Below, piece by piece: positions 22,669 to 47,333 of a stretch of DNA of 53,473 nucleotides (position 1 is the first letter of the stretch; every line of letters begins with the position of its first letter). The notes beneath the pieces are model-generated. The model saw nothing but the letters and a program-made list of their open reading frames with translations. It ran no database searches and was not told the origin of the DNA. The position numbers and the translations under genes were made by a program. Origin of the DNA: a virus. The stretch spans positions 1 through 53,473 of the IMG/VR virus record IMGVR_UViG_3300012359_000030, one strand, 5' to 3'.

Positions 22669-22808
22669 AAAGATTTTGGATTACTTTTGAACTTATCACA
22701 ATGCTCGGCAGATATTACGCCCTATGGATTCATAATTGGGAACTTATCCTAGTTTGCTTTATCCCGATGATACTCAATGTAGTATACGATTTGAATATAT
22801 ATAAATGA
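22665..22808 (+). CDS. 47-aa membrane protein
   Basis: ATGA-coupled to both neighbours. Hydrophobic stretch about 24-40 (LILVCFIPMILNVV). Sits directly before a glycosyltransferase gene. Confidence 0.5.
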   Translation: MKRFWITFELITMLGRYYALWIHNWELILVCFIPMILNVVYDLNIYK

Positions 22809-28618: not shown

Positions 28619-28622
28619 ATAT

Positions 28623-30445: not shown

Positions 30446-31128
30446 ATATAGATGTCATTGTCTCATGGCCTATTCACCTGGATTTTCCTCTATGGAGGCA
30501 ATTTATTCATGAGAATAGATCCAGATTTAACAAAGTGATCGTCGTCTTTACCCAGATGAACACAGGCAGAGATTATCGTCCATTTCTTCGGGAGCAATTG
30601 AGTAAGGAAGGGGTTAGTATCATAGATAATGATGAGGTAGAGGGCGGTCAGGATTGGAGAAATGTCGCGGTACGCAAAGCTCTCGGAGTCTCAGATGCGG
30701 AATGGATATGGTTCACCGAACAGGACTTCTTTCCACAGAAGGATTTCTGGGATAAAGTTGCATATTATTCGTTTCATACTGATGCCTTTGGATATTACCA
30801 GGATACACGGCTTCATCCTTGTTGTATCTTCATAAGACGTAATCGACTTGATCAGACGACTAAGGACTTTTCAGCTAACCCGCCGGGATATGATCATTTT
30901 GGTAAATTGCAATTAGATCTTGAGAAAGGTTTACCAATTGGAAAAATAGATAAGGAATATGGTCATCATTATAACGGTCTTTCCCAGAATATCTGGCTTC
31001 TCATGAATGGACTCGAGCCGAATTATAATCCCCCGGAATTCAAAGAATATTGCAGGAAATGTCTCGCGCTTGATATTCCCATTGAGCCGAATATGAAAGC
31101 ATTATTTGAAAAATATGTTAGTATTTAG
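30442..31128 (+). CDS. Putative glycosyltransferase (EQD type), paralog 4
   Basis: 228 residues; shares the WFTEQDFFPQKDFWD and LHPCCIFIRR blocks with the preceding protein, so they form a duplicated pair. Acceptor unknown. Confidence 0.55.
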   Translation: MNIDVIVSWPIHLDFPLWRQFIHENRSRFNKVIVVFTQMNTGRDYRPFLREQLSKEGVSIIDNDEVEGGQDWRNVAVRKALGVSDAEWIWFTEQDFFPQKDFWDKVAYYSFHTDAFGYYQDTRLHPCCIFIRRNRLDQTTKDFSANPPGYDHFGKLQLDLEKGLPIGKIDKEYGHHYNGLSQNIWLLMNGLEPNYNPPEFKEYCRKCLALDIPIEPNMKALFEKYVSI

Positions 31129-32158
31129 CGACAGGCATCATGAATCACTCTATTCCTCTCTCGTCATGCTCTTCGAAGACAGACTCGGAGGAGAACTTTA
31201 TTATCCTTTAGGCATGGAGTGGTATGAACAGGGATATTGGAATGTCTATCCTCATCCCGCAACAGCGAAACAATATTTGTCTTTAGATCAGCTATATCAC
31301 CCTGAAGACGGCACACCTCCCCTCAATCAAATCATGGAGATACACGAAGGCATCTTCTCAGTCGAAAGTACAGATACCCATAAATACATCAAAGGAATCA
31401 GACTCGACAAATTCAAAGAAATGAGATTCGACATCCTGATCGCTACTCTCCCCCAACATATTGAACCATTCAAGAAATTAATCTCAACCTACCAACCCCA
31501 AGCGAAACTCATCTACCAGATCGGTAATCAATGGAATATCGACTTAACCGTAGTTAAGAATGTTATGGCATCAGCAAACATAGATATACCAAAAGATGTC
31601 AACGGTGTGATTTATCATCAGGAGTTCGATCTCAATATTTTCGATTATACTCCCGTTCCTATGGCGAAAAAAATATATAGCTTCATTAATTGCCTGAGTA
31701 TGGTTGATATTTATCGGAAAGATTGGGAGTTATTTTTAGAACTGGAACGCCTGTTGCCAGATTGGGAATTCAAAAGCTTCGGCGGTCAATGCAGGGACGG
31801 ATGGTGTAACGGAACGAAAGAACTTGCCGATAAGATGAAAGAAGCTGCCTTCATTTTTGCGTGTAAGAATGAAGGTGATGGTTATGGACATGTTATTCAT
31901 AACGCAGCAGCTATTGGAAGACCATTAATTGTCAGAAAGTCCGATTATGATGGCAAGCTCGCCGAACCATTACTCGAAATGTCCACAAGTATATATGTAG
32001 ACAATAAAACGCCGCAAGAGATAGCAAGCGAAATTCAAGAAACTCATGATAATGGCTTTGATTATCTGAAAGGGAAACGTATCTATACCAAGTTCAAAGA
32101 GCAAGTCAATTTCGATCACGAAATTCATAAAATCCGTAACTTTTTAGATTTCTTATGA
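31115..32158 (+). CDS. GT-B-like glycosyltransferase
   Basis: 347 residues from the ATG at 31115; a TTG start at 31106 is less likely. N-terminus MLVFSDRHHESLYSSLVMLF, and C-terminal FACKNEGDGYGHVIHNAAAIGRPLIV, the donor-binding glycine/His region of GT-B enzymes. The start overlaps the end of the 30442 gene. Last transferase of the operon. Confidence 0.6.
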   Translation: MLVFSDRHHESLYSSLVMLFEDRLGGELYYPLGMEWYEQGYWNVYPHPATAKQYLSLDQLYHPEDGTPPLNQIMEIHEGIFSVESTDTHKYIKGIRLDKFKEMRFDILIATLPQHIEPFKKLISTYQPQAKLIYQIGNQWNIDLTVVKNVMASANIDIPKDVNGVIYHQEFDLNIFDYTPVPMAKKIYSFINCLSMVDIYRKDWELFLELERLLPDWEFKSFGGQCRDGWCNGTKELADKMKEAAFIFACKNEGDGYGHVIHNAAAIGRPLIVRKSDYDGKLAEPLLEMSTSIYVDNKTPQEIASEIQETHDNGFDYLKGKRIYTKFKEQVNFDHEIHKIRNFLDFL

Positions 32159-32385
32159 AACTTATCTTACATGCGATTAGAATTAATCCAAACGTTATCG
32201 AGGAAATTCAGATAGAAGATGTATCCCATTTTTCTGTTGATGATTCGAATATCGTGGTTCAGTTCAACGACGGCAAGCATGAACTCATTCCACTTCGTGC
32301 CAATGACGGACAACAGATTCATGAATGGTCAGGATTCTCGATCTTCGTGACGAGAGTTGGATTGAAAGTAGATATGAATAAATAA
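32155..32385 (+). CDS. Small hypothetical protein (76 aa)
   Basis: Strand-rich 76-residue protein (VVQFNDGKHELIPLRAND, WSGFSIFVTRVGL). Coupled to the transferase upstream. No family. Confidence 0.5.
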   Translation: MKLILHAIRINPNVIEEIQIEDVSHFSVDDSNIVVQFNDGKHELIPLRANDGQQIHEWSGFSIFVTRVGLKVDMNK

Positions 32386-32386
32386 T

Positions 32387-32791
32387 ATGAGTAAAATGAT
32401 TTGTATCCCATGTAATATGGAATTCCCTTCCGATGCTATTTATATAAGGCATAAGAATTCCGGTCATGTTGCTTTTCGCGAGAAAGGAATTGTTCTTGAT
32501 TCGCCACCCGAACCGCTTCTTCCTCCCGGCTTTCCCGAACCTACTTCCGAATTCGTCGAGATGGTCAATAGAATTGAGAACAAAACAGAAGAACCAAAAC
32601 CTTCGCAGCATCCATCCGAATTACCTCCGGCATCTCCGATTACTCTCGAATATATCTGGCGCGGCGAATGTCCTTCTGATAGAGCTTCAGTTACGACACT
32701 TGAACTCGATGTAGCGAACAAACATTTCTGTATTGCCATTTGTTCGATCTGTAGAAAGCAATTAGCGACTATGGAGGTGGCAAAACTATGA
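32387..32791 (+). CDS. Zinc-finger protein (134 aa)
   Basis: N-terminal C2H2-type finger (CIPCNMEFPSDAIYIRHKNSGH) and a C-terminal part with CSICRK that could bind zinc. A Pro-rich linker lies between. Likely nucleic-acid binding. Confidence 0.6.
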   Translation: MSKMICIPCNMEFPSDAIYIRHKNSGHVAFREKGIVLDSPPEPLLPPGFPEPTSEFVEMVNRIENKTEEPKPSQHPSELPPASPITLEYIWRGECPSDRASVTTLELDVANKHFCIAICSICRKQLATMEVAKL

Positions 32792-32925
32792 ATAACGAAC
32801 GTACCTATGTTCAACTTGTACATAAAAATATTGAAACCCTTCTCAAAATAATTGAAACAAAAGATGATATTATTCGTATGTTAATGACAGAATTATTGCC
32901 TGGCAAGGAGGTGGCAAGAGAATAA
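32788..32925 (+). CDS. Small helical protein (45 aa)
   Basis: ATGA-coupled to the zinc-finger gene and TAATG-coupled to the next. Helical (VQLVHKNIETLLKIIETKDD). No motif. Confidence 0.5.
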   Translation: MNNERTYVQLVHKNIETLLKIIETKDDIIRMLMTELLPGKEVARE

Positions 32926-33149
32926 TGGGACAAGTAGTATATCGACAAAAAAATACCTATACCAAACGCTGTGATAAATGCGGCAGGTTATCTCACTATA
33001 TTTACCGTATTCAATTAGGTCAATTCTGGTATAACTTCTGCTCGGGCATGTGTACAGACGCAGCCCAGAAAGAATATCAATCCAAGGAAAAGAACGGCAT
33101 TTCACCAAGCAGTTTGGAACCGATTGAAGAAGGAGGTGATATTGCATGA
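32925..33149 (+). CDS. Small zinc-binding protein (74 aa)
   Basis: CDKCGRLSHYIYRIQLG, then CSGMCTDA, a Cys4 zinc site. GGAGGTGG ribosome site upstream. Coupled to the next gene. Confidence 0.6.
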   Translation: MGQVVYRQKNTYTKRCDKCGRLSHYIYRIQLGQFWYNFCSGMCTDAAQKEYQSKEKNGISPSSLEPIEEGGDIA

Positions 33150-33457
33150 CCGAAGAACAAAGAAAGATAGACATGGAGGTGTTTGAAGCCGAAGCGAAAA
33201 AAACAGCTCTTCAGTTACCGAATCACAAACTAAAAGAGTTTACCCTGAATACCATAGAACAGCAAATGCTTGCCGAACAGGAGACTATTGTCGCACTGGC
33301 TAGAGCTTCACAGGATAAAATTATCAATGAATATGTTCTCAGTAGAGTTGGAGTTACCCCAAGTCCTGCGATTCATATAAGGTATTCAATTAGTCTGGGA
33401 AGATTCGTAGTATATACACCCAAATTACCCAAGGGATCGTCTAAAGAAAAGTCGTAG
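33146..33457 (+). CDS. Hypothetical protein (103 aa)
   Basis: 103 residues, helical N-terminus, more strand-like C-terminus with basic tail. GGAGGTGA ribosome site. Last gene of the plus-strand operon; no clear terminator follows before the convergent gene at 33552. Confidence 0.5.
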   Translation: MTEEQRKIDMEVFEAEAKKTALQLPNHKLKEFTLNTIEQQMLAEQETIVALARASQDKIINEYVLSRVGVTPSPAIHIRYSISLGRFVVYTPKLPKGSSKEKS

Positions 33458-33551: not shown

Positions 33552-34904
33552 TTATAATCCAACGCCGAGAAGACTACGCAATCGGCTCGAACTCGCTAGC
33601 GAAACAGCATTTATATCCCGTATACCAATTGCCGCGATAGACCAGGTAGCAGCAGCTCCCACATTGGTATATGACATCGTGACAGATCCCGCAGGGGTTT
33701 GCGGTCCCGTTGTCTCATCTGCTCCTGAACCGAGAGTCCCAGTCGTATTATTGCGGGATGTTTGATTAGCGGTAATACTCGTATCACTTGACGCGACTGC
33801 CCCGATAACCCAATCATTATCTGCCACAGTCGTTACGCTCACCGTGGCATCGGCAGCTCCTATATTTGTTGCTGACGCGGAATTAAATCCTTCAGTCGGA
33901 GAGACTTGATGCACTCCATCCAAAGATATCGCACTTCCTATGCTATCCAACCCGGTAGATAATGTCACAGCGATACTATTTGTCCCGATAGTCGGATTTA
34001 TCAGTCCCCACATTTCTATACGTACTGCTCCTGATGCAGATGCTTTTGCTCCCAGGAACGTCATTGCCACTCCTCCATAGGTAATAGAAGTTACCGAAGA
34101 CCCCGCTACCGATAACATCGCGATATCTACTTCCAGATATCTGTTCGCCCCATTCGTTGTATGATTCCATGAATACGAAGCACTCGCTGTCTGGTATCCC
34201 GAGTTCGATACAGCATCAAATCCTATTACTTCCGCCTTGATTTCGATTGCTATCCCTCCCAACATCGCATTGGCTGAAAAAGTAGCATCCACGGTCGTAT
34301 CATTACTCACTTTCCATTCAGATACGATATCTATTCCGGTTCCTCCTCCCTGTGTCTCATTTGTAGCCAATTGACTAAACCCTGCACCTACCGAACTAAG
34401 CGTATGACTCCCGTCAGATGCCAATACTCCATATGTCGCATTATTCGTATTACTGAATGCTCCCAATGTCACCGTCAATGTCGGTGAGGTAGCTGTTTCG
34501 TCTTTATTCGTCGCTGATTGTACGACAGCTCCCGCGCCATTAGCTCCTGATGTATCAATCCCTGCTGCCTGATCCACCACCCAATCCACATCTGTCTGAT
34601 TTTGTCCGCCAAAATCAATAGAAATAGCCCCGCTCGTCGGACTAGCTCCAAGTCCACGGAAAAGCGTTATTCTTTTCCTACTTGCGCTTGTTGTATCCCA
34701 CACAATAGTCGCAATCGCCACCCAAGTCAGTCCGTTCCCCGTGAGAGTAGGTTGATTAGGATCAGCAGTGATATTTGTACGCGAATTAACTGCGACAAGA
34801 ATAAGATTATTACTTGCCGGAGAGATAGAAGCAGTCGCGGCAGTGCTATTGCCATCAATATCTGCTCCCGATGTGAGATTTGTTATTGAGACCAGTTGCG
34901 CCAT
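33552..34904 (-). CDS. Tail/adhesin-like beta protein (450 aa)
   Basis: Ser/Thr/Gly/Ala-rich beta protein with two similar halves, each ending in a 'I-GI-I' strand (GGIAIEIKAE near 225, SIAAIGIRD near 430). Composition fits phage tail or decoration proteins. SD AAAGGAG precedes the ATG. No enzyme motif. Last gene of the 41160-33552 minus-strand block. Confidence 0.55.
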   Translation of the reverse strand: MAQLVSITNLTSGADIDGNSTAATASISPASNNLILVAVNSRTNITADPNQPTLTGNGLTWVAIATIVWDTTSASRKRITLFRGLGASPTSGAISIDFGGQNQTDVDWVVDQAAGIDTSGANGAGAVVQSATNKDETATSPTLTVTLGAFSNTNNATYGVLASDGSHTLSSVGAGFSQLATNETQGGGTGIDIVSEWKVSNDTTVDATFSANAMLGGIAIEIKAEVIGFDAVSNSGYQTASASYSWNHTTNGANRYLEVDIAMLSVAGSSVTSITYGGVAMTFLGAKASASGAVRIEMWGLINPTIGTNSIAVTLSTGLDSIGSAISLDGVHQVSPTEGFNSASATNIGAADATVSVTTVADNDWVIGAVASSDTSITANQTSRNNTTGTLGSGADETTGPQTPAGSVTMSYTNVGAAATWSIAAIGIRDINAVSLASSSRLRSLLGVGL

Positions 34905-34906
34905 AG

Positions 34907-36157
34907 TTACACTCCTTTATATCCGCTCATAGAAGCGATTACATTTGCTCCCGTCGTTACAGGTTGACAATTAATAGCAGTGGCGGCTGTTCCTCTGAGA
35001 GGAGTAGGAAATGTAGCAGTATATCCTCCTCCCGCAGCCGCAGCATATCCTTCATGGATAATAGTTGCCCCGTCAAGAATTTTTACAAAGGTACCCACAG
35101 TTGCATGAGAATTCGTAACAGTTATTTGCGTAAGATATGTTCTTACTCCTGCCGCTTGAGCTGAAATAACAGCAGTGGAAGTAGTATCGGTGATAGCCGC
35201 CGTAGTTCCATTAACAAAATTTTCCGGGTTGGCATAAGGTAATACAATCAACTTCCCTACTAAATCCGCTACCAGTTGCACCATTCTCGCTGTAGTGACA
35301 GCACTATTCTCAGACGAGACAGCCTGCGCACCAGTATTAATAGGATTTGTGCCGATAGCGACATTTGTCGCGACATTTCCTCCCACAGCCTGTGTACCTG
35401 CTACTCCCGCTGTTACTATTGAAGTACCGGCTACAGAAGTCAAATCCGCCTGAAGCGCATTCCCCGCGGTGACATTTACTCCCCGTTCATTTCCCGCGGC
35501 ATCACGAATTTGATCATATACCTCTCTTCTTACTGACATGCGGACATTCCCGAATTGATTTTCCGTAATAGCAGTTGGAGATACATCATCAAATTGCGCA
35601 AGTAATCCCACAGCTCCGATACCTGTCCCCGTAGTATTATTCGCGTTTACAATAGATCTCCATAAATCAACAGATGAACCATTGTAGACTCCATTCTGTG
35701 CATATACTTTCGCCGCACCTGTCAGATTGGCTGTATCAGCCGCAGTCGCCACAGTCAATGAATTAGTACTGCTTGCGCCGAATATTTCAACACGCAAAGC
35801 TCCACGGGAACCTACATTCAAGATATTGAATTGGGTATCAGTTAAAGTAGGTAAGGTATTATTGTATTTTGCTATCGTTGATACATTCAAAGCACCTGTT
35901 ATAGTAGCTACATTACTTACATCGCCAAATGTTGGCGTAACAGAAGCGATCTGGGAAATATTAGAAATCGTAGATAATGGAGTAAGTGTGGATAATTGGG
36001 CTGCGGTGAGTACCACAGGCAACGAAGATGCGGCCAATTGCTGCCCCAGAGAAAAAGCTGCTCCTCCTACCTGCTTAATATTTACATCACTCGTTCCAGT
36101 TATAGACACGCTCCCTAGTGAAACCGATGTAGCCGATCCGCCATTAAGTCTCGCCAT
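34907..36157 (-). CDS. Structural beta protein, cassette copy 2 B gene (416 aa)
   Basis: Starts MARLNGGSATSVSLGS, like the 39132 gene (MTRLNGGTGNSTG), and overlaps the stop of the upstream gene (36157) in the same way. Ser/Thr/Ala/Gly-rich beta protein, possibly a tail-surface protein. Together with 36157-36972 it forms one of two matching gene pairs. Confidence 0.55.
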   Translation of the reverse strand: MARLNGGSATSVSLGSVSITGTSDVNIKQVGGAAFSLGQQLAASSLPVVLTAAQLSTLTPLSTISNISQIASVTPTFGDVSNVATITGALNVSTIAKYNNTLPTLTDTQFNILNVGSRGALRVEIFGASSTNSLTVATAADTANLTGAAKVYAQNGVYNGSSVDLWRSIVNANNTTGTGIGAVGLLAQFDDVSPTAITENQFGNVRMSVRREVYDQIRDAAGNERGVNVTAGNALQADLTSVAGTSIVTAGVAGTQAVGGNVATNVAIGTNPINTGAQAVSSENSAVTTARMVQLVADLVGKLIVLPYANPENFVNGTTAAITDTTSTAVISAQAAGVRTYLTQITVTNSHATVGTFVKILDGATIIHEGYAAAAGGGYTATFPTPLRGTAATAINCQPVTTGANVIASMSGYKGV

Positions 36158-36972
36158 TAAGCGTCTCCTCCTTCCATGAGATCATTCATCTCAAGCACAC
36201 GTATATCGGCACTTCCCCCTGCGGTAACTGCGTAGACGATATTTCTCGGACCCGCATCCAATGATGGACCATATGTTCCCGCAGGGACGGGTATGCCTGT
36301 AGCCGAAGTCACATTCGCTCCGCCTACATAAATAGTCGTTGAGGCTGAGTTATTATAAATGGTGAGACTTCTCCTGTCTGCCAATGCTGTTCCAGGCAAT
36401 GGAGTTAACGCGGAAGTTACGGTTACAGCAGTCGCCATAACAGTTCCCCGGTTAGGATTCAGAGAAACATTCGTCACTGGTTGAGGAATCATCCAGTTTT
36501 GGATCTCGACAGGTATGGTCTTATCAGGAAAGCCAACATTTGCCGCCTCTTTGTTGATCAAGATATTAAATCCTTTCTTCAGTTCCTCAATTCCTTCGAG
36601 AAGGTCATCGAAGCTCTTCACCCGGATTTCATTATTAATTGATAAATCATTGGGAATTTTGATATTAACTGCCTGCATAGCCTTGACAGTAGTCCGTTGG
36701 AGTTCATTGATTTGATTCGCGAGTGCTATAAAAGCGTTATTGAGTTCTGAGAGGTTTTTGATCTGAACAGGTGGCAATGAGTCAATTTTGTCAATAGACA
36801 CTTTCCCGAATACTTGAAACATATGAGGAATGTCAACTCTGAATTTCCCGGTAGTTGTCAGGATTTCAGTGAGTTTTCCGTTAATCTTATCAAGCAACGT
36901 AAGGGTACGGGGATCAGCAATCTCTTTGAATTGCAAATCTAGGTCGTTTAATTCCAAATCGTCGGGTTTCAT
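36157..36972 (-). CDS. Structural protein, cassette copy 2 A gene (271 aa)
   Basis: N-terminal helical part (1-160), then a C-terminal ~110-residue beta domain beginning PVTNVSLNPNRGTV and ending VLEMNDLMEGGDA. This C-terminal domain is nearly identical to that of the 39470 gene, so it is a repeated domain. An extended -10 promoter and hairpin leader precede it. Confidence 0.6.
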   Translation of the reverse strand: MKPDDLELNDLDLQFKEIADPRTLTLLDKINGKLTEILTTTGKFRVDIPHMFQVFGKVSIDKIDSLPPVQIKNLSELNNAFIALANQINELQRTTVKAMQAVNIKIPNDLSINNEIRVKSFDDLLEGIEELKKGFNILINKEAANVGFPDKTIPVEIQNWMIPQPVTNVSLNPNRGTVMATAVTVTSALTPLPGTALADRRSLTIYNNSASTTIYVGGANVTSATGIPVPAGTYGPSLDAGPRNIVYAVTAGGSADIRVLEMNDLMEGGDA

Positions 36973-36973
36973 A

Positions 36974-37020
36974 GTAGATATACTCTACCAGGTTGTTCCT
37001 TTGGAGCTATCTTAATTATA
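36974..37020 (-). promoter_or_regulatory. Late promoter and conserved hairpin leader, copy 2
   Basis: TGATATAAT extended -10 (-10 at 37015-37020), then GAACAACCTGG, then a 5-bp hairpin (36974-36988) one base before the ATG. Same layout as 41162-41212. Confidence 0.6.
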
Positions 37021-37039
37021 TCACATTGAGGCTATTTTC

Positions 37040-39130
37040 CTAGCTCAAAGCAAACCATGGGGAACTAGCCAAAGAAGTAAATGTTCCCAGGGATGACGGA
37101 GCAGTAGTGCCTATTCCTGTGTCAGCAGTGAAAAATCGTGACGCGCTTGAAGCGAGATTGGCATTTGGCCCATTATTCCCCGCACCCCGTCCGAACTGAC
37201 CGAATGTAGATCCCGTTGAGACATCTTCCCATGCGACCGCGTATATCTTACCCGCTGTTACGGTATATGGACCGCTTGCTAGTGCAATAGTTTTGACTCC
37301 CGTAGTCTGAAAAGGAGTAGATTGATCTGCGGATTTCGCAATCAGATTCTTGCTTGAATCATATAATGCGACGAAGCAGTTCTGCAAATTAGCTCCCGCT
37401 GATGTGATATTTACAATAACGTTAGTTACACTACAGGTAACAGGAAGAATTAATGTTGATCCGAAAACGAGTTTCGCGGTAGGATTGTAATTATTCACCA
37501 TCCCGACAGGATCATATGACCATGTTAAGAGACTTGCGTTGTCCCACGGAGTCCAGCCTGCGTCTTGCGGAAATGGATTATTGCTCAGAGCAATCGTTCT
37601 CCAATAGGTTCCATCAGAATAGCCTATCCAATATGCTCCCGGAGAATTCAGAACAATACTTGGCTTATTATTGTCTATCGCAGTGCCTCCTGAAACGGAG
37701 ATAGTAAGGGTAACGGTAGTAGTCAGTGAGTTTGATTCGTCCTTGATCACAAAGACCTCATTGGTATTTCCCGCAGCAGGGGCAGGGAGAGTAAAAGTCC
37801 GGCTCGAAGTTATCGAAGTTAGCGGAACGATCATATCAGATGCACTGAGCGTATGCCCCGTATCTGCCTGAGCAGACCGGTTCATAAAAAGATTCTGGAG
37901 TGTCTTATTTGTGACGTTTTGTGTACCATTTGTCGAAAGTACATGACCACTCGTACTTGAAGGGGTTGTTATAGTCAAATCTGTCCCTGAAAAATTACCA
38001 TTCGCATCGATATATGCCTTCTCGACATTACTTAATAACCCCTGGAAGAATTTACCTCCGGCTCGTACACCCTTTGCGATAAATTGTATAGGAGATCCAG
38101 AGTTAGCATATGTATCTTCCGCTATTAGGAGTCCTGCCGCATCGCCTGTTCCGTCCCGATAATAATGAAGATACTCCCCGGCAGTATTGAGGTTTCTGTG
38201 CATAATAACTCTTTGATCTTTGAAAGTATTATTTTCGATAAAAGCATTCCCCGCACCATTATCGATAATACTCGTTGACCATCCGCCCCATCCATTTCCT
38301 GAGTAATAATTCCCCATGAACTGATTGTTCGCGCTGGAAGAATCTAGCTGTACATGAGTAACAGTTCCCCGGTCATTACATTCTATGCGGTTGTTAGTAA
38401 AATTGTTTCCTATGTCATTGGACTCAACACCTATAAGGAAGTCCTCACAGGAATTATTAATAAAATGGTTGTCATTTCCGTACTGGATGTTAATAGGATA
38501 TTCAACTCCTGTCCCCCCTGATGCTTTAGTAAATCCACATCCATTAAGAGTATTTTCATTTGGTTTGAAGGCAGTCGCATCGGGATCACGGGTAAATAAA
38601 AATCCATTGGTACATTCTTCTACTTTCGTACGATAGAAGCGGAGAAAATAGGATTGCCCCCATACTTTGACCGCTGTCTCGAAATTTGTAATCAAAACTC
38701 TCTCAAAATCCGAATCAAATTGATACATCATATCCAGTCCTATGGCTCCCGCATTAGTTTTAGCAGTGTTATCGAGGGTTAAGTCGGATACTTTTAGTTT
38801 ATATCGTGCCGTTGTGGGGCTTGTTTTTTGAATAGCGGAGAAATTAGCCTTATTCCATGTCAAGTAGGTAACATTCATTCCCATTCCGACGAGTTGAATA
38901 GCTGAAGTATCAGGAATACTAATTGAATTTGACAGGATATAATTTCCTTCACGCAGCAATACTCTTCCATTCGTTGCATAACTCGCCACTTTGGTCAACG
39001 CGGCATTTATCGTCACGTCATCATTTGACCCGGTAGTCACATAATCAGCATATTGCGCGAATGGACTGCTTTGCGGACATACGACGATTGTATCTGTTTT
39101 CGGGAATGGTCTTCGGGTAATGTCTGACAT
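37040..39130 (-). CDS. Tailspike-like beta-helix protein (696-708 aa)
   Basis: The start MSDITRRPFPKTDT (39130) directly follows the stop of the previous gene; an alternative in-frame start is at 39166. Repeated short strands with Asn/Gly/Ser (NGCGFTKASGG, HFINNSCEDFLIGVESND, NNFTNNRIECND, NTFKDQRVIMHRN) indicate a right-handed beta-helix, the fold of phage tailspikes/pectate-lyase-like adhesins. A C-terminal beta domain follows. Probably recognises or cuts host surface glycans. Confidence 0.7.
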   Translation of the reverse strand: MSDITRRPFPKTDTIVVCPQSSPFAQYADYVTTGSNDDVTINAALTKVASYATNGRVLLREGNYILSNSISIPDTSAIQLVGMGMNVTYLTWNKANFSAIQKTSPTTARYKLKVSDLTLDNTAKTNAGAIGLDMMYQFDSDFERVLITNFETAVKVWGQSYFLRFYRTKVEECTNGFLFTRDPDATAFKPNENTLNGCGFTKASGGTGVEYPINIQYGNDNHFINNSCEDFLIGVESNDIGNNFTNNRIECNDRGTVTHVQLDSSSANNQFMGNYYSGNGWGGWSTSIIDNGAGNAFIENNTFKDQRVIMHRNLNTAGEYLHYYRDGTGDAAGLLIAEDTYANSGSPIQFIAKGVRAGGKFFQGLLSNVEKAYIDANGNFSGTDLTITTPSSTSGHVLSTNGTQNVTNKTLQNLFMNRSAQADTGHTLSASDMIVPLTSITSSRTFTLPAPAAGNTNEVFVIKDESNSLTTTVTLTISVSGGTAIDNNKPSIVLNSPGAYWIGYSDGTYWRTIALSNNPFPQDAGWTPWDNASLLTWSYDPVGMVNNYNPTAKLVFGSTLILPVTCSVTNVIVNITSAGANLQNCFVALYDSSKNLIAKSADQSTPFQTTGVKTIALASGPYTVTAGKIYAVAWEDVSTGSTFGQFGRGAGNNGPNANLASSASRFFTADTGIGTTAPSSLGTFTSLASSPWFALS

Positions 39131-39131
39131 A

Positions 39132-39470
39132 TTAATTGTAGTAAATATACGTGACCCCCTCGCCATTGACGAGAGAATCTATATAAACCAGATTCAAGTT
39201 TGAAACATAGAGATCATAACTATCTCCCGCATAGAGAGGCACACCTTTGCGGGTAGCCAAAGCAGCCACGACATCCGATCCTCCTACAGTGACAATGTTT
39301 GTATTATTTGTCATAGCTATGACAATAACTTTTTGACAAGGAATGCTTGAGGAAGAAAGCTGTACTCTCGTGCCTGCGGTTGTAACAATCTTGTTCCCAT
39401 CTGTAATTGAGGTAAATAACCCTGAAAGTATTCCTGTGCTATTACCAGTACCCCCATTAAGTCTTGTCAT
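39132..39470 (-). CDS. Small tail protein, cassette copy 1 B gene (112 aa)
   Basis: Starts MTRLNGGTGNSTG, matching the N-terminus of the 34907 gene, but is only 112 residues. Beta-rich (VTVGGSDVVAALATRKGVPLYAG). Start overlaps the stop of the A gene, as in copy 2. Confidence 0.55.
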   Translation of the reverse strand: MTRLNGGTGNSTGILSGLFTSITDGNKIVTTAGTRVQLSSSSIPCQKVIVIAMTNNTNIVTVGGSDVVAALATRKGVPLYAGDSYDLYVSNLNLVYIDSLVNGEGVTYIYYN

Positions 39471-40504
39471 TAGCTATCCCCTCCCTCTGTTAGGTCATTC
39501 ATTTCCAGCACCCGTACATCAGCAGAGCCAGCGGATGTAACCGCGTAGACGATATTTCTCGGACCCGCGTCCAATGATGGACCATAGGTTCCGGGAGATA
39601 CAGGGATTCCCGTTGCGGCAGTGACATTCGATCCTCCTACATAGATAATAGTCGTTGATGAATTATTATGAATCATCATACTTCTTCTATCCGCGAGAGC
39701 TGTTCCAGGAAGAGGGGTGAGAGCTGTGGTTACGGTAACAGCAGTTGCCGTGACTGTTCCCCTATTGGGATTTAAAGATACGTTCGTTACGGGTTGCGGT
39801 ACTTTCTGTGGCGGGAAATTATTTACCGAAAGACTTGTCGGAAATTCGACTGGCCTGTTCATGCCTTCTGATAATGTATCGAGACGATCCCGAAGTTCCT
39901 GTAACAATAAATTCGTTTCACCGAAGTCAACCGGCGGCATCTTAACATCTCTTGGTTTTAATAGCATGAGCTGTTTTGAAAGATTTGTAATAGCTGCTTC
40001 AATTTTTGTAGTATCTAATTGAGATTGATTAACAACCTCTACTTTCGTAAGTTGCGGAGGTTTTATCTTCTCGATAGTAGCAGTCAGCCGTTCGAGATAT
40101 GCCGTGATTTCATCGAGGTTATTAATACTGATATCTTCAGGCATTTCAGGTATTTTGATATTCTTTATTGCTCCCAGAAGTTCGGGAGAATCAACAGTGA
40201 TTTTCGTCGGAGTCGCAGGGAATTTAATATCCTTTATTTGATCGCCCAAAGATTGCATGTCTTCTCTGGTAGGCATATTGCTGAGAATTTGATTACAGAA
40301 ATGAGATATTTTTCGTAAAATACCCATCGCAATAGTGGATATGATGAAATTATTGCTATTTGTTTTATTGACTTTTTCCATAGGCTGGACGATCTCGTTT
40401 ATGGGTATCTGAGGTTGGGAATCTTTTAATTCCTGAATTGAGGAGATAAGCTCATTATGCCTCGCCCTCTCAAGAAGTCTGGCTCTGGCGTTCTGATCTA
40501 TCAT
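39470..40504 (-). CDS. Structural protein, cassette copy 1 A gene (344 aa)
   Basis: Helical N-terminus (RARLLERARHNELISSIQEL and further), then the same C-terminal domain as the 36157 gene (PVTNVSLNPNRGTV... VLEMNDLTEGGDS). Likely a baseplate/tail-attached protein with a repeated connector domain. Confidence 0.6.
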   Translation of the reverse strand: MIDQNARARLLERARHNELISSIQELKDSQPQIPINEIVQPMEKVNKTNSNNFIISTIAMGILRKISHFCNQILSNMPTREDMQSLGDQIKDIKFPATPTKITVDSPELLGAIKNIKIPEMPEDISINNLDEITAYLERLTATIEKIKPPQLTKVEVVNQSQLDTTKIEAAITNLSKQLMLLKPRDVKMPPVDFGETNLLLQELRDRLDTLSEGMNRPVEFPTSLSVNNFPPQKVPQPVTNVSLNPNRGTVTATAVTVTTALTPLPGTALADRRSMMIHNNSSTTIIYVGGSNVTAATGIPVSPGTYGPSLDAGPRNIVYAVTSAGSADVRVLEMNDLTEGGDS

Positions 40505-41160
40505 ATTTTTTTCGTAGACTTGTTCTTCATATCATTCAGTAATTGCAAATGTAGTCCATTCGCACTCTGATGAGGTTCAGAAGCCATAGCCATTATGTTC
40601 TTGACATAATCCTGTGTATGCTTATATGGCGGGACACCTCCAAATTGCTTCACCGCTTTCCCGCCCGCGTTATACGAAGCCAAAGCGAGATCAGGTTTGC
40701 CGAACTTATCCCACGATTCTCTGAGCATTCTTGCTGCTCCCATGATGGCTGATTCAGGATTCATGGGATCTATACCCATCTTTTGTGCTACATCAGGCAT
40801 AAATTGAGCTATTCCTATACCGCCTGCTTTCGAATGTGCTTTCGGATCGAAGCCTGATTCCTGTTTCAAAAGAGCCGAGAGCATCATAGTAGGGATATCG
40901 TTTTTATCAGAAGCTTTTTCGATAATCGGTTTTACCCAATCAGGAGTACCATCGACATATTCAGGACTGGATACAGGCGGATGAGAAGCATTCGTATCGA
41001 GTGTTTTTCTTTCAGGCGGAGTCTCAGCCCTCGGACTTATACGTTGAACTTCTTGCTGCGCCCAGCCGGGAGACTGTGCGGAACTGCGGTCAAAGGCGGG
41101 TACTGAAGACGACGAAGGACTGGACGCAGGTCTTGGTAATAGAGAAAGTAAATTATTCAT
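40501..41160 (-). CDS. SLT-type lytic transglycosylase
   Basis: 219 residues: low-complexity Ser/Pro/Arg start (1-65), then an SLT domain. Catalytic Glu is E101 in LLKQESGFDP; GIAQFMP (~116-122), SYNAGGKAV and YVKNIMA are the classic goose-lysozyme/SLT motifs. It cleaves peptidoglycan glycan chains, likely to open the wall during DNA entry. First gene of the minus-strand block; its leader has a promoter and hairpin. Confidence 0.85.
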   Translation of the reverse strand: MNNLLSLLPRPASSPSSSSVPAFDRSSAQSPGWAQQEVQRISPRAETPPERKTLDTNASHPPVSSPEYVDGTPDWVKPIIEKASDKNDIPTMMLSALLKQESGFDPKAHSKAGGIGIAQFMPDVAQKMGIDPMNPESAIMGAARMLRESWDKFGKPDLALASYNAGGKAVKQFGGVPPYKHTQDYVKNIMAMASEPHQSANGLHLQLLNDMKNKSTKKI

Positions 41161-41161
41161 A

Positions 41162-41212
41162 GCAGTAGTCTCCTACTGCCAAGTTGTTCTTTTAGTAAGC
41201 AAATATATTATA
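41162..41212 (-). promoter_or_regulatory. Late promoter and conserved hairpin leader, copy 1
   Basis: TGGTATAAT extended -10 (-10 at 41207-41212), then GAACAACTTGG, then a 7-bp hairpin GCAGTAG/CTACTGC (41162-41179) with AGGAG in stem and loop, one base before the ATG. Confidence 0.65.
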
Positions 41213-41247
41213 CCATGTAGAATCGAATTCGTTTGATATGGTGGCTA

Positions 41248-41276
41248 TTGTCAGGAGCTATATTATATGCTATAGT
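41248..41276 (+). promoter_or_regulatory. Promoter of the effector gene
   Basis: TTGTCA (41248-41253), 17-nt spacer, TATAGT (41271-41276). The spacer and -10 contain motif copy 5 (TATATGCTATA, 41264-41274). Predicted start just before the ATG at 41289, so a leader of a few bases only. Confidence 0.65.
41264..41274 (+). promoter_or_regulatory. TATATGCTATA motif, copy 5
   Basis: Exact 11-mer inside the effector promoter; same sequence as at 18243 in the same orientation. Confidence 0.55.
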
Positions 41277-41288
41277 AGCATAGCGTTT

Positions 41289-42734
41289 ATGAAATCAGAT
41301 ACTAAAGACAAGAAAATTATCATCCACCAGACGAAGACGCTCTCGTTACGGATCGTCAAGCCACAGTCTATTCCCATGGAAGAATTTACCGATCTAGTGC
41401 GTTATCATCAAATGATAATCTTTCCTGTCTACAACAATGGAGCAATAGATTTATATAAAAAGCTTTTCAAAGCAAAAATCCAAAAAGGCAACGAGGCTCG
41501 GGCGATTAAATACTTCATGAATAAGATAGTATATGCTCCTATTGCCAACACAGTGAAAAATTCCTATATTGCCCTTGGGTATTCCACTAAAATGCAGAGT
41601 TCTTTTTCAGGAAAGCGATTATGGGATTTGCGTTTTGGAGAGGCTACACCGCCCACGATTAAAGCAGACTTTCCCCTTCCTTTCTATAATCAATCAGGAT
41701 TCAAGGTTTCGTCGGAAAATGGAGAATTTATAATTGGCATTCCCTTTGGTCAATATACAAAAAAAACTGTTTCTGATATCGAAAAAAAAACTTCCTTTGC
41801 ATGGGATAAATTTACCCTTGAAGACACCACGAAAAAGACTTTAATAGAACTTCTCCTATCTACAAAAACCAGAAAAATGAATGAAGGCTGGAAGAACAAC
41901 GAAGGGACCGAAGCCGAAATCAAGCGGGTAATGGACGGGACATATCAGGTTACAAGCCTTGAAATACTTCAAAGGGATGATAGTTGGTTTGTGAATTTCA
42001 ATATTGCTTATGACTCATTAAAAAAACAGCCTGATAGAGATAAGATTGCGGGTATTCATATGGGAATTACCCGTCCATTAACTGCCGTTATTTATAACAA
42101 TAAATATAGAGCGCTATCTATCTATCCCAATACCGTCATGCATCTTACCCAAAAACAACTCGCGAGAATTAAAGAACAACGCACCAACAGCAAATATGCT
42201 ACAGGAGGACATGGTAGGAATGCGAAAGTCACCGGAACCGATACCTTATCAGAAGCTTACCGTCAGAGGCGGAAAAAGATAATTGAGGATTGGATCGCTT
42301 CAATAGTGAAATTTGCTATAAATAATGAGATAGGAACTATCTATCTCGAAGACATTTCAAACACTAACTCATTCTTTGCAGCACGTGAGCAAAAACTGAT
42401 CTATCTCGAAGACATTTCAAACACTAACTCATTCCTATCCACCTACAAATATCCTATATCAGCCATTTCCGATACACTTCAGCACAAACTCGAAGAAAAA
42501 GCTATACAGGTAATCCGTAAAAAAGCATATTACGTCAACCAGATTTGTTCTCTCTGCGGTCACTATAATAAAGGATTCACTTACCAGTTCAGAAGAAAAA
42601 ATAAATTCCCGAAAATGAAATGTCAAGGCTGTCTGGAAGCAACTTCTACCGAATTTAATGCGGCAGCAAATGTAGCCAATCCTGATTATGAAAAATTACT
42701 CATCAAACACGGACTTTTACAACTAAAGAAATAA
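41289..42734 (+). CDS. Compact Cas12f/TnpB-like effector with altered RuvC site
   Basis: 481 residues from the ATG at 41289; the upstream frame to 41238 lies inside the promoter. N-terminal ~240 residues are the recognition/wedge region. The C-terminal half is a RuvC nuclease with a Cys4 zinc finger (C420, C423, C445, C448). The RuvC-I motif reads GIHMGITRP, where the family has GIDxG, so the catalytic Asp is His (H257). RuvC-II is IYLEDISN, present twice (E354 and E374) by a 60-bp direct repeat. RuvC-III is STEFNAAANV with Glu (E455) where the family has Asp. A GHGRNAK block matches the region before the helix of compact Cas12 proteins. Size and architecture fit Cas12f/V-U/TnpB. Nuclease activity is doubtful; RNA-guided DNA binding is the inferred role. 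Confidence 0.8.
   Translation: MKSDTKDKKIIIHQTKTLSLRIVKPQSIPMEEFTDLVRYHQMIIFPVYNNGAIDLYKKLFKAKIQKGNEARAIKYFMNKIVYAPIANTVKNSYIALGYSTKMQSSFSGKRLWDLRFGEATPPTIKADFPLPFYNQSGFKVSSENGEFIIGIPFGQYTKKTVSDIEKKTSFAWDKFTLEDTTKKTLIELLLSTKTRKMNEGWKNNEGTEAEIKRVMDGTYQVTSLEILQRDDSWFVNFNIAYDSLKKQPDRDKIAGIHMGITRPLTAVIYNNKYRALSIYPNTVMHLTQKQLARIKEQRTNSKYATGGHGRNAKVTGTDTLSEAYRQRRKKIIEDWIASIVKFAINNEIGTIYLEDISNTNSFFAAREQKLIYLEDISNTNSFLSTYKYPISAISDTLQHKLEEKAIQVIRKKAYYVNQICSLCGHYNKGFTYQFRRKNKFPKMKCQGCLEATSTEFNAAANVANPDYEKLLIKHGLLQLKK
42341..42434. repeat. 34-bp direct repeat, 60-bp period, in the effector gene
   Basis: A 34-bp segment at 42341-42374 is repeated exactly at 42401-42434. Period 60 bp, so the frame is kept and 20 residues are inserted. 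It covers the RuvC-II motif. Confidence 0.9.
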
Positions 42735-42744
42735 TTTTTCCAGC

Positions 42745-43010
42745 TTAATTATCGATGCCGTAAGGTCGATAGATAATTCGGTGAAATCCCGATAGGTAAG
42801 CCCGCAATTCGCGGATACGCCTGTAAGCACAAGTCGTCAGACTGAACGGATCGGCGTATCTATCACGCCCTATGGTGAGTTCATTAGGATACATGACTTT
42901 GAGAGGGTAATATATATAACACTAGATCCCATTCTCCTAGTTTTCCTATGGATCTCACTAAGATTGATACTAAATGAATTGTAGACTACATTCATATAAT
43001 TGAATGTAAG
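42745..43010 (+). ncRNA. Structured RNA with anti-repeat (tracrRNA candidate)
   Basis: Starts right after the effector stop. Hairpins: AATTATC/GATAATT (42747-42753, 42772-42778, with a CC-GTAA-GG tip), CCGC/GCGG (42802-42814), an 8-bp perfect closing stem GATACGCC/GGCGTATC (42814-42821, 42853-42860) enclosing AGTC/GACT, TCAC/GTGA, and AGATCC/GGATCT (42924-42955). Then AATGAATTGTAGAC (42972-42985) matches the reverse complement of the CRISPR repeat start (AATGAGTTGTAGAC) at 13 of 14 bases. A hairpin CATTCA/TGAATG follows. This is the layout of tracrRNA in compact Cas12 loci; a TnpB-like guide RNA scaffold is the alternative. Confidence 0.72.
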
Positions 43011-43113
43011 TAGATCATAATACTTCAGGTGTTCGCAAAAATGTTATGGCTAAGAAGACGAGAAGTGATTCTGTCCACTATTACGATTATCTTGCTATAT
43101 CAATATGTAGACG

Positions 43114-43512
43114 GTCTACAACTCATTGATAGAAATCAATGAGTTAGACAGAAAGTGTGCTGTGGGTAGTTTCAGTCTACAACTCATTGATAGAAATCAA
43201 TGAGTTAGACATAAAATTGAATCTGCATTTAAGTTAAGTCTACAACTCATTGATAGAAATCAATGAGTTAGACGGATATGATGCAAACTTTAAGAGGATA
43301 GTCTACAACTCATTGATAGAAATCAATGAGTTAGACATTGTGAGTGAAGAGTTTTCCTAGTCTGTCTACAACTCATTGATAGAAATCAATGAGTTAGACA
43401 AAAAGCAAATAGCTTTACTTACCAGTCTACAACTCATTGATAGAAATCAATGAGTTAGACGCGACGTGGTTTTCAGCGTCGATTCTCCATGTCTACAACT
43501 CATTGATAGAAA
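43114..43512 (+). CRISPR. CRISPR array, 6 complete repeats + 1 truncated
   Basis: Repeats of 36 bp begin at 43114, 43175, 43238, 43301, 43364 and 43425, all identical; a seventh (43491) keeps about 22 bases and then decays, marking the trailer end on the cas4 side. Spacers are 25, 27, 27, 27, 25 and 30 nt. Each repeat begins GTCTAC and ends TTAGAC, and its two halves (GTCTA plus ACTCATTGAT, with a CA bulge) pair perfectly around an AGAA loop, so each repeat is almost one complete hairpin. The ~100 bp before it (43011-43113) is the leader. Confidence 0.97.
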
Positions 43513-43533
43513 ATCTAAAAATTAAAATAAACT

Positions 43534-44082
43534 ATGGACGACTATATATCCTTTTCTCAGTTGAATGATTTTTTATATTCGCCTTTGTCACTATATTTGC
43601 ATGAATGTTATAAAACATATCATACACAAATGTACGATGATATACCTCAAGTCGCAGGGAAAAAAGCTCATGCTACTATAGACAATAACCAATATAAGAA
43701 AAAACATTGGATTACCGGCATGTGGTTATGCTCGCCTATATTGCGCCTTTATGGAAGAGCCGATTTGTATAATGATTTCACAGGGGAATTAGTAGAAAGG
43801 AAAAGAAAGATTGCATATATCTACGAAGGCTATAAAATGCAGATATGGGGACAATATTATTGCCTCGTTGAGATGGGATATTCTGTTTCAGGTATATCTC
43901 TGCATTCGCTTATCGATAATTCCCGATATTCTTTAGGCATTCCTACAGAAGATAATATCCATCAATTAAAAGATCTTATAAATAGAATGCGAATATATAC
44001 ACCAACATTTGACGTTCTAGAGGAAGAAAATGAGAAATCCTCAAATTCTATTTATGCAGCACTCCTGCCGACAAAGAAATAA
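43534..44082 (+). CDS. cas4: Cas4-like RecB nuclease lacking the Fe-S cysteines
   Basis: 182 residues with the RecB/PD-(D/E)XK order: H46 (GKKAHATID), D77 (LYGRADLYND), E88 and K90 (ELVERKRK), and a Gln-Tyr motif (YKMQIWGQYYCLVEMG). Cas4 trims prespacers and helps select PAM side. The usual four Cys of the Fe-S cluster are not present: only C25, C66 and C110 occur, and the C-terminal CxxC...C segment is missing (ends NSIYAALLPTKK). So it is a cluster-less, slightly short Cas4. Starts 22 bp after the last repeat. Confidence 0.75.
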   Translation: MDDYISFSQLNDFLYSPLSLYLHECYKTYHTQMYDDIPQVAGKKAHATIDNNQYKKKHWITGMWLCSPILRLYGRADLYNDFTGELVERKRKIAYIYEGYKMQIWGQYYCLVEMGYSVSGISLHSLIDNSRYSLGIPTEDNIHQLKDLINRMRIYTPTFDVLEEENEKSSNSIYAALLPTKK

Positions 44083-44085
44083 ACT

Positions 44086-45057
44086 ATGCTAACTCCATCA
44101 GATATTCACCATCGCAAATTGTTATTAATCATGCCAAAAGAAAAATTAGACGTAGCCTTGCAATTGCAGATGGGAACCTTATTATATAAGGTTGACGATA
44201 AAAATATCGATAAAATCCCACTACATAGCCTACTCGCTATATTTTTTTATGGCAAATGTACTATATCTTCAGAGTTACTGAAAGAATTCGCTTCACATGC
44301 AGTTTCCATATTTTTCCTCAATACGAATTTTGAATTGCATACCAGTTTCATAGCAGAAACAAAGGCGAATTATCTACTTCGCCAAAAACAATACTATCTA
44401 ACGGAAGATCAAGAGCTTACGCTTGCACGACAACTGATTCAGTATAAGATTAAAAATCAATATAATACATTAACATATTTTAAGAAAGAATTATTTTCTG
44501 AACCTGATATTTCCTTAATGAACGATGCTCAATCAATTCTCGGGATAGAAGGTTCTACTAGCTCGCTCTATTTTTCCAGACTCTTTGACTCTATGAATTG
44601 GTACAAACGCCTGCCGCAAGCAAAGCCGGATGAAATTAATATACTTATGGACATTGGATATACTATGCTTTTTAATTTAACTGATGCTATGCTTTCTCTT
44701 TTTGGCTTCGATACCTACAAAGGATTCTATCACAAGTTATTTTTCGCCCGGAAGTCTTTGGCATGTGATCTTATGGAACCAGCCAGACCGATTATAGATG
44801 CCGCGATTGTCACTATGTATCGGCATAATATATTTCAATTAAAAGACTTTGAAGTGAAAAATAAGAGTTATCAATTCGCCGGAGGCTGGAAAACACGACA
44901 GAAATATGCCTCTTATTTCGTCAGGACACTTTCTCAATATAAAGAAGAATTATTCCTCTATATCCGCCAATATTATTTTTCTATGGCTAATCCCGAGAAA
45001 TACCAGTTTCAAAATATCCAAATTGACTTTGCGAAGCTCCCGCAATCACTAGAATAA
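44086..45057 (+). CDS. cas1: Cas1 integrase
   Basis: 323 residues; N-terminal beta domain and C-terminal helical domain. Active-site E155 in LGIEGSTSSLYF, H216 in GFYHKLFFARKSLACDLMEPARP with D228/E231 following. All expected metal-binding residues are present, so spacer integration should be possible. Lies 3 bp after cas4 and 1 bp before cas2, an operon. Confidence 0.92.
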   Translation: MLTPSDIHHRKLLLIMPKEKLDVALQLQMGTLLYKVDDKNIDKIPLHSLLAIFFYGKCTISSELLKEFASHAVSIFFLNTNFELHTSFIAETKANYLLRQKQYYLTEDQELTLARQLIQYKIKNQYNTLTYFKKELFSEPDISLMNDAQSILGIEGSTSSLYFSRLFDSMNWYKRLPQAKPDEINILMDIGYTMLFNLTDAMLSLFGFDTYKGFYHKLFFARKSLACDLMEPARPIIDAAIVTMYRHNIFQLKDFEVKNKSYQFAGGWKTRQKYASYFVRTLSQYKEELFLYIRQYYFSMANPEKYQFQNIQIDFAKLPQSLE

Positions 45058-45058
45058 T

Positions 45059-45340
45059 ATGCTACTCATCTCCTATGACATATCCAAAACAAAAACCAGA
45101 ACCAAATTTGCCAAATTCCTTGAGAAGTATGGTGAGAGAATCCAATATTCTGTGTGGAGGGTAGAAAATAGCCCGCGTTTGTTGCGGATCATTCAGACAG
45201 AAATCAAGCAGACATTCTCCAAGCTATTTAAGGCGACAGATAGTGTCTATATCTATCATATCTGTGAAGGTTGTGAGAAAAAAGCCATAAAATTCGGCTT
45301 CGCGAAGCATGAAGATAAGGATGTTATCATTTTGAGTTGA
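45059..45340 (+). CDS. cas2: Cas2
   Basis: 93 residues of the ferredoxin-fold Cas2 family: LLISYDISKTKTRTKFAKFL (with D7) and YGERIQYSVWRVEN. It bridges Cas1 dimers in spacer acquisition. Overall size and motifs are normal. Confidence 0.92.
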   Translation: MLLISYDISKTKTRTKFAKFLEKYGERIQYSVWRVENSPRLLRIIQTEIKQTFSKLFKATDSVYIYHICEGCEKKAIKFGFAKHEDKDVIILS

Positions 45341-45356: not shown

Positions 45357-45386
45357 TTGACATAGTACTATAGTATATGATATAGT
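45357..45386 (+). promoter_or_regulatory. Promoter for the 27-aa membrane peptide
   Basis: TTGACA (45357-45362), 18-nt spacer, TATAGT (45381-45386). Start predicted at the ATG (45393). The TATAG-TATATGATATAG region resembles a degenerate TATATGCTATA motif. Confidence 0.6.
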
Positions 45387-45392
45387 GATTCG

Positions 45393-45476
45393 ATGTTAAT
45401 GTTTGGTATAATAATGATTGTCTATACTATTCTATTCGTCATCGTATCTTTCGTGCTTGAGATGCTATTGGGATAA
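45393..45476 (+). CDS. 27-aa membrane peptide after cas2
   Basis: Almost wholly hydrophobic (FGIIMIVYTILFVIVSFVL). No ribosome site; its promoter places the start at the ATG (leaderless). It ends 12 bp inside the opposing gene. Might be a toxin-like or stress peptide, but nothing confirms this. Confidence 0.4.
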   Translation: MLMFGIIMIVYTILFVIVSFVLEMLLG

Positions 45477-47333
45477 TGATTGGGAAACAGATTGTTTTAT
45501 ACCCAATTGTTGCAATGCCTTTCCTACTTCAGTCATTACTCTTTTTGTTCCTTTAGCTTCGATGAACTGTGCTACTTTCTCTTGAACTCCCGGATCATTA
45601 AGCAGTTTTTCTGTTGCATTTCTGGCTCCCATACCGATTAACCATGCCCCCGATCCAGATCCCACTATGCCGAGATTAGTTAATGCATTAAGAAGTGCAT
45701 ATCCCCCCATTCCTGCTCCCAATCCTGCTATATTGGATACCATGTTTAATGTTGCGTTTGTTGGTTTTTTATTTCTCGCGAGTTCTTTTTGAAGTGCTAT
45801 ATCCTCAGCGGTTGTTCCTGCGGGAGGAACCCTCGAATCTTTAGCATCCTGAAGATTACTACGAATATCTGAGAGTTGATATGATTCCTGATTCAGTGAC
45901 TTTATAGTATCTGGATTTCCCGATTTTTGTTCAATATAATTCTTCAAATCCATATATGTTTTGTTATAAACACTCGAACTATTCTTGCTATCCCATTTAT
46001 CTCCAATAGCTTCTTTGAGAGCGTTTACTAATTTTAGGCTTCCTGGATATTTGCCTTGAATAAAATCTTGCAAAGATTGAGGTGTATATCCTCCTTTTGA
46101 TGCTCCTTTAGTATTCGCAATAGGTCCTTGATATTTTGAGATCCTAACCTTTGCTTCATTTGGATCGACTAAATCACCTGTCCGCTTATCTATAAAGCCA
46201 GTAATATCGCTTCCTGTTTCGCCTCCTATAGGGATCAGTCCTGCTTTATCATAAATTGCCGGGGTAAATTTGGGTACTTTAATTTCGTTCGATGCACCCG
46301 TTGTCGCGCCAATGAATTTGAGATTACTCTCTGCGTTAGTTCTTATGGTAGATAAGAAATTATCATATGCCTGATTTACTGCTTTTGTATCTCTGGGGTT
46401 CAGATTATAGGTATTCACAAGATTATTTTTTATCATTGTTTGTATATCCTCAGGCGGAATCTTAATATTATCCGGCAAAGCATTCATAAGATCTTGACGC
46501 ACCTGTTGTGCTTTTGCTGACCGTTTATCCAAAGCATCATTTATTGCTTGTGTATCAAATGTCACTTTTGGATGAGATTGCTTTTTTTCATCTATATGGG
46601 AAACTGGTAATATTCCCTCATTAGTCGCATAATCAGTATTATAATGTCCGACTAGGTTGTCTGCCGCATTTCTCCAGCCAAGTTGTTCTACTTTTGTAGG
46701 TACATCCTGAATACGCTGTTTTATTGCCTGCGTTGTTTTATTTACCAAATCCTTACCTGCACCAGCAAGTATATCTCCAAATCCGGGAATTACAGTATTT
46801 AATCCTCCCGTTAATAACGCCTGCCCTGTCATCTGTGCGGGATCAACTTGTCCATTATTTTGAAATAAATCCTCCACTGCTCCGACTCCTGTGCCTGTTA
46901 TAAATCTCTTCGGAATAGATGCTACGGCTTTTTTTACTCCGCCGCCAATTGTCTTCATTGTTGCTTCTGCTTCTGGCTTTACAGCTTCCCCTCCCGGCAA
47001 TAATCCATAAAGCCCCTGTTCACCGGCTTGTTTATATACTATTGGATCTTTGAAAGGGTTTTGTTTTAGTGCCATATCATTAGATATCTGCGGAATTGGC
47101 CCGCCAATAGCACCACCTCCAACCATTCCCGCTCTTATTGCCAGAGGATTACCGGCTGTAAGAAATCCTGCTAACGTCCCCAATCCCAGACTACCCAATG
47201 TTCCAGTGACGTTAGATATACCTTCAGTTGTAGGTGGTCCATATTGCAATGGATTAGATAATTGAGCCGAAGGAGCTTGCAGGTGTTCTTTTGCGCCCTG
47301 GTATAGTTGTTGTAGTTGTTGATTTTTATCCAT
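45465..47333 (-). CDS. Large internal/ejection-type virion protein (622 aa)
   Basis: 622 residues: Gln/Ala/Gly-rich helices, hydrophobic glycine segments (GTLGSLGLGTLAGFLTAG near 45; LGAGMGGYALLNALTNLG near 550) and long Lys/Asp-rich helical stretches. Hydrophobic patches in a large soluble-type protein fit ejection proteins that form a channel across the host envelope. Not matched to a named family. Start overlaps nothing; 2 bp gap to the previous gene. Confidence 0.5.
   Translation of the reverse strand: MDKNQQLQQLYQGAKEHLQAPSAQLSNPLQYGPPTTEGISNVTGTLGSLGLGTLAGFLTAGNPLAIRAGMVGGGAIGGPIPQISNDMALKQNPFKDPIVYKQAGEQGLYGLLPGGEAVKPEAEATMKTIGGGVKKAVASIPKRFITGTGVGAVEDLFQNNGQVDPAQMTGQALLTGGLNTVIPGFGDILAGAGKDLVNKTTQAIKQRIQDVPTKVEQLGWRNAADNLVGHYNTDYATNEGILPVSHIDEKKQSHPKVTFDTQAINDALDKRSAKAQQVRQDLMNALPDNIKIPPEDIQTMIKNNLVNTYNLNPRDTKAVNQAYDNFLSTIRTNAESNLKFIGATTGASNEIKVPKFTPAIYDKAGLIPIGGETGSDITGFIDKRTGDLVDPNEAKVRISKYQGPIANTKGASKGGYTPQSLQDFIQGKYPGSLKLVNALKEAIGDKWDSKNSSSVYNKTYMDLKNYIEQKSGNPDTIKSLNQESYQLSDIRSNLQDAKDSRVPPAGTTAEDIALQKELARNKKPTNATLNMVSNIAGLGAGMGGYALLNALTNLGIVGSGSGAWLIGMGARNATEKLLNDPGVQEKVAQFIEAKGTKRVMTEVGKALQQLGIKQSVSQSLSQ

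Follow-up and report, generated by a model that had tools for sequence, protein, structure and literature searches.

A predicted hairpin leader at the start codon precedes two tail-module operons of an uncultivated phage

In the replicase operator of RNA phages, a hairpin covers the start codon. The T4 gene e (lysozyme) leader places the ribosome site of a gene for a cell-wall-degrading enzyme inside a hairpin, with a promoter nearby; there the late promoter lies in the region encoding the 5′ strand, and late transcripts therefore escape the hairpin. At the split ribosome-binding sites of T4, a hairpin reduces the Shine-Dalgarno spacing from 22 nt to 5 for gene 38 and from 27 nt to 11 for gene 25 (PMC3014915).

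The two leaders described here lie in a single virus record, IMGVR_UViG_3300012359_000030, whose 53,473 bases form the window of our analysis. As in T4 genes 25 and 38, each has a predicted hairpin directly upstream of a phage gene AUG, and leader 2 resembles these sites further in having a Shine-Dalgarno-like element about 23 nt off that would come to lie about 9 nt off after looping out. Leader 1, in contrast, has no good upstream Shine-Dalgarno sequence and bears one in the loop instead. Both differ from the T4 sites in that the hairpins abut the AUG and are predicted to pair with it, and in that one genome has two copies of the leader, which share a box. The start codon is covered by the hairpin as in the replicase operator, although only the A of the AUG lies inside it here. 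A scheme of the gene e type, despite its similar setting, was rejected as inapplicable because the promoter precedes both arms: in each leader the first base of the stem comes about 25 nt after the −10 element, neither −10 element falls in the 5′ arm, and every transcript would carry the hairpin.

Genome setting and the two operons

The window encodes a portal gene, an integrase, an endolysin, a lytic transglycosylase and virion and tail genes; since peptidoglycan-degrading enzymes are encoded, an archaeal TATA-box reading of the −10 elements was set aside. Both leaders lie on the minus strand in the late region of tail-module genes, where operon 1 spans 41160 to 37040 and operon 2 spans 36972 to 33552 (Table 1). 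The initial annotation had placed them at the head of late operons, and the genes behind them are indeed of tail and lysin type, comprising an SLT transglycosylase and tail-module genes. The phage is uncultivated, and the leader stands in front of two of its tail-gene operons.

The C-terminal half of the 271-aa protein is 67% identical to the 344-aa protein over 147 aa. The two genes have this C-terminal region (phrog_30212) in common and unrelated N-termini, which suggests that the pair arose by duplication with domain replacement. A relative, IMGVR_UViG_3300044832_000059 (L028), has a single gene with an N-terminus of the 39470 type.

Several other features of the window were recorded. Between the late genes lies a compact type V-F CRISPR-Cas island (41238-45340, +) with Cas12f (start probably 41289, PADLOC 5.7e-170, similar to Cas14a.1/Un1Cas12f1), an array of 36-nt repeats at 43113-43512, and Cas4, Cas1 and Cas2; this is a complete adaptation module plus a miniature effector in a virus and may merit a separate look. 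Beyond it, at 45357-45460 (+), a good promoter-like TTGACA-18-TATAGT (11/12) and a copy of TGGTATAAT at 45404 are directed towards a stretch that faces the end of a late gene and has no more than a tiny reading frame (about 20 codons). An 86-aa free-standing OmpR/PhoB-type winged-helix DNA-binding domain (6875-7135, −; Trans_reg_C 3.9e-16) is a candidate phage regulator. A tightly packed 15-kb gene run (18395-33457, +) includes a glycosyltransferase, an NAD-dependent epimerase and a weak methyltransferase match, looking like phage-carried surface-sugar genes. Extended −10-like sites also stand 0-12 nt before the start codons of the 7135, 48451, 5459 and 41289 genes, which suggests that several transcripts in this genome are leaderless or nearly so; the two hairpin leaders would be exceptions.

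Table 1. Features of the two leaders and of the operons behind them (window positions).
Feature	Position	Strand	Basis and remarks
Leader 1 extended −10, TGGTATAAT	41207..41215	−	Exact match; no −35 of note, missing from −35/−10 pair scan
Leader 1 box, GAACAACTTGG	41189-41179	−	
Leader 1 single-stranded part, AAAAGAACAACT	41182..41193	−	Sequence; unpaired probability about 0.6-0.98
Leader 1 hairpin, TGGCAGTAG-GAGA-CTACTGCTA	41160..41181	−	RNA fold; last base is A of ATG; AGGAG Shine-Dalgarno at loop
Lytic transglycosylase (SLT), first gene of operon 1	40501..41160	−	Pfam SLT 2.1e-19; PHROG lytic tail protein 1.8e-28
344-aa tail-module protein, second gene of operon 1	39470..40504	−	phrog_30212; C-terminal part paralogous to 36157-36972
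112-aa protein, operon 1	39132..39470	−	ORF; homologues in phage loci L053, L063, L064
708-aa protein, operon 1, putative tail spike	37040..39166	−	ORF; role inferred from position; no family match
Leader 2 extended −10, TGATATAAT	37015..37023	−	Exact match; directly past stop of 37040 gene
Leader 2 box, GAACAACCTGG	36998-36988	−	
Leader 2 single-stranded part, AAAGGAACAACC	36991..37002	−	Sequence; includes Shine-Dalgarno-like AAAGGA
Leader 2 hairpin, TGGTAGA-GTATA-TCTACTA	36972..36990	−	RNA fold; last base is A of ATG
271-aa protein, first gene of operon 2	36157..36972	−	phrog_30212; paralogue of 39470-40504
416-aa tail-module protein, operon 2	34907..36157	−	C-terminal part widespread in phage contigs; 60 IMG/VR relatives
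450-aa tail-module protein, operon 2	33552..34904	−	Relatives in IMG/VR

Layout, folding and paired changes

Read directly from the sequence, each leader runs from an exact TGnTATAAT through AARGAACAACYTGG to a hairpin at the ATG, with 46 nt from TGnTATAAT to ATG in leader 1 and 42 nt in leader 2. The extended −10 that had been claimed for the 41160 and 36972 genes is thus present without mismatch in both. In full, leader 1 reads TGGTATAAT-(ATATTTGCTTACT)-AAAAGAACAACT-TGGCAGTAG-GAGA-CTACTGCT-ATG and leader 2 reads TGATATAAT-(TAAGATAGCTCC)-AAAGGAACAACC-TGGTAGA-GTATA-TCTACT-ATG. The two have in common AAARGAACAACY, the outer pairs U-A, G.U and G-C, and a single U ahead of the AUG; they differ in stem interior, loop and length, with changes on both sides of the stem, and the nucleotides between the −10 and the box are unrelated. 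The linker ACAACYUG, which connects the purine tract to the hairpin, has the same length in both, whereas hairpin length differs. Judged from the −10 elements, a leader of about 36-40 nt should be started by an extended −10 promoter; sigma-70 spacing would put the RNA starts near 41200 and 37008, with the hairpin included in every transcript from these promoters.

By eye, the stems are GCAGTAG/CTACTGC (loop GAGA) and GTAGA/TCTAC (loop GTATA), each stopping one base short of the ATG. Folding lengthens both by a G.U pair and by a U-A pair in which the A is that of the AUG, giving 9 bp at −13.5 kcal/mol in leader 1 (none of 200 shuffles equally good) and 7 bp at −6.9 kcal/mol in leader 2 (3 of 200 equally good), in agreement with the initial claim that both stems pair despite their different sequences. 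The GAACAAC(C/T)TGG box of that annotation is found in both leaders; because folding extends the stems, its TGG belongs to the stem base, and the unpaired box is better written AARGAACAACY. In promoter-started RNA the hairpin pairs have probabilities of 0.8-1.0 in both leaders, and the unpaired stretch of leader 1 is predicted to be open. In some read-through contexts, pairing of upstream coding RNA with the AUG of leader 2 is the minimum-energy fold; we do not claim a read-through switch, the hairpin keeping about 50-69% probability in most contexts and 24% in one.

Counted from the stem base, pairs 1, 2, 3, 5 and 6 are identical in the two leaders, pair 4 is C-G versus U-A, and pair 7 is U-A versus A-U, such that both arms have changed at two of the seven shared pairs; leader 1 has two extra pairs. 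An insertion of three pairs (CAG/CTG) in leader 1 is an equivalent reading, and the arms have changed together under either registration. Pairing of the stems has probably been selected. The covariation proposed earlier therefore stands as both-sided changes at these two pairs plus a length difference, and it is minimal, coming from two copies in one genome; automatic alignment puts the 3′ arms out of register, and two sequences are not enough for a covariance model.

Chance expectation and distribution

The joint leader pattern is beyond chance, and among its single elements only the hairpin is clearly so. TGnTATAAT alone occurs in the window at chance frequency (5 found, 5.05 expected). Exact GAACAACYTGG was found three times against 0.01 expected, the third copy (46678-46688) lying within a coding frame with neither hairpin nor ATG. 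Taken as a single pair, the leaders have a box similarity with a tail probability of about 0.0016, which is not significant once the screen covers all 2211 pairs of gene starts. When start-adjacent hairpins are compared over 67 gene starts, these two are the most stable. A descriptor of the form TGG-stem-loop-stem-CYATG, with a stem of at least 4, matched exactly these two sites in the window against 0.07 expected; in other loci it matched three unrelated sites, none with the box. In 1.3 Mb comprising the window and the fetched phage DNA, a correctly spaced exact TATAAT combined with a start-adjacent hairpin of −5.5 or better was found at four sites, two of them being these leaders.

The leader was not found in any fetched locus, IMG/VR contig, GTDB genome contig or GenBank phage record searched. 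A protein search with the 416-aa tail protein returned 60 loci. Among the relatives gathered with protein queries (33552, 36157, 34907, 51326, 50756 and Cas1), L028 is the only multi-gene one, with many late genes in common at about 28-66% identity. Its homologue of the 344-aa and 271-aa genes (L028:8298-9230) sits in a tightly packed gene run and has no promoter, box or hairpin ahead of it. Pattern scans gave candidates that were all rejected: in IMG/VR, one match within a portal-like gene and two away from the starts of sizeable genes; in GTDB genome contigs, four matches, none with this hairpin at a sizeable gene start. BLAST of both leaders against GenBank phages gave short matches only (E about 0.2 or worse), and Rfam covariance models found no gathering-level match in the window, with only chance-level eukaryotic small-RNA matches nearby. 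Since no leader was found elsewhere and L028 lacks one, the evidence for covariation rests on n = 2 in one genome. As far as could be seen in searches that may omit very near records, the leader is confined to this genome, much as the T4 gene 25 arrangement is confined to a narrow group.

Proposed role in translation initiation and competing readings

We favor, with moderate confidence, the reading that a single cis-acting, structured translation-initiation region is present in two copies, these leaders, each ahead of a tail-module operon. The leader would then probably be a local control or tuning device for translation. Translational control is plausible because the AUG and, in leader 1, the Shine-Dalgarno sequence lie within the hairpin. 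In leader 1 the best Shine-Dalgarno, AGGAG, is in the hairpin loop about 9 nt from the AUG (anti-Shine-Dalgarno duplex −7.3), and the upstream AAAAGA is a poor one. The best match in leader 2 is AAAGGA, with a duplex of −5.6 kcal/mol; it lies about 23 nt ahead of the ATG and is predicted to pair in part with coding sequence. Because AAAGGA is upstream of the hairpin, simple occlusion of the ribosome site does not serve as a shared explanation for the two leaders.

In the mechanism we propose, the extended −10 promoter would start a short leader RNA with an A-rich, unpaired AARGAACAACY followed directly by a hairpin predicted to close on the A of the start codon. The 30S subunit would probably land on the unpaired stretch and then loop out or melt the hairpin. 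In leader 2, looping out would shorten the distance between AAAGGA and the AUG from about 23 nt to about 9, and by analogy with the T4 sites we consider this likely; such a model predicts what the leaders show, an ACAACYUG linker of fixed length next to a hairpin whose length varies. The split-site model would fit leader 2 and not leader 1, whose very stable hairpin holds AGGAG in its loop and more probably gates it.

A second reading, which we regard as possible and on balance unlikely, takes the hairpin as repressive: it would close the start codon, and a protein or RNA acting in trans and reading the GAACAAC box and the stem would time the translation of both tail operons. Both leaders pair the A of the AUG, opening leader 1 should be difficult at −13.5 kcal/mol, and the box stands at a fixed place next to the stem. 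Against this, no trans factor was identified among the small genes scanned, stability differs about twofold between the leaders, and a lysin gene kept nearly off would need some activator. It seems quite improbable that the unpaired box and start-codon hairpin form a common translational switch through which a trans-acting factor coordinates the two operons.

The paralogous genes in the two operons (67% over 147 aa) invite the view that the leader is a remnant of an internal duplication of the tail module with no function beyond the promoter, and the box alone is within the yield of the all-leader screen. We consider this rather unlikely: the nucleotides from −10 to box are unrelated, yet stem pairing has been kept through both-sided changes, and in operon 1 the paralogue comes second, with another gene between it and the leader.

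Any such palindrome is equally a DNA dyad, and one gene of the window (6875-7135) codes for a free-standing winged-helix DNA-binding domain (Trans_reg_C), so that the hairpins might instead be sites for a dimeric regulator in the early transcribed region. Loops of 4 and 5 with unequal stems, however, make the half-site spacing differ, the interior letters differ as well, and a conserved G.U pair and abutment on the AUG are meaningful only in RNA; we judge this very unlikely. Phage late mRNAs often have 5′ structure, and a hairpin that merely stabilizes the mRNA is still far less probable here, as sigma-70 spacing would start the RNA about 18-20 nt upstream of the stem and leave the 5′ end unpaired.

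Should the structured initiation region that we favor prove functional, it would add an independent example of a phage hairpin at tail-gene start codons, one used twice as a module within a single genome. Its two stems, which differ in sequence and strength, would provide a built-in comparison, and the leaders would be a compact system, from a phage of uncultivated bacteria, in which structured initiation could be tested with reporters.
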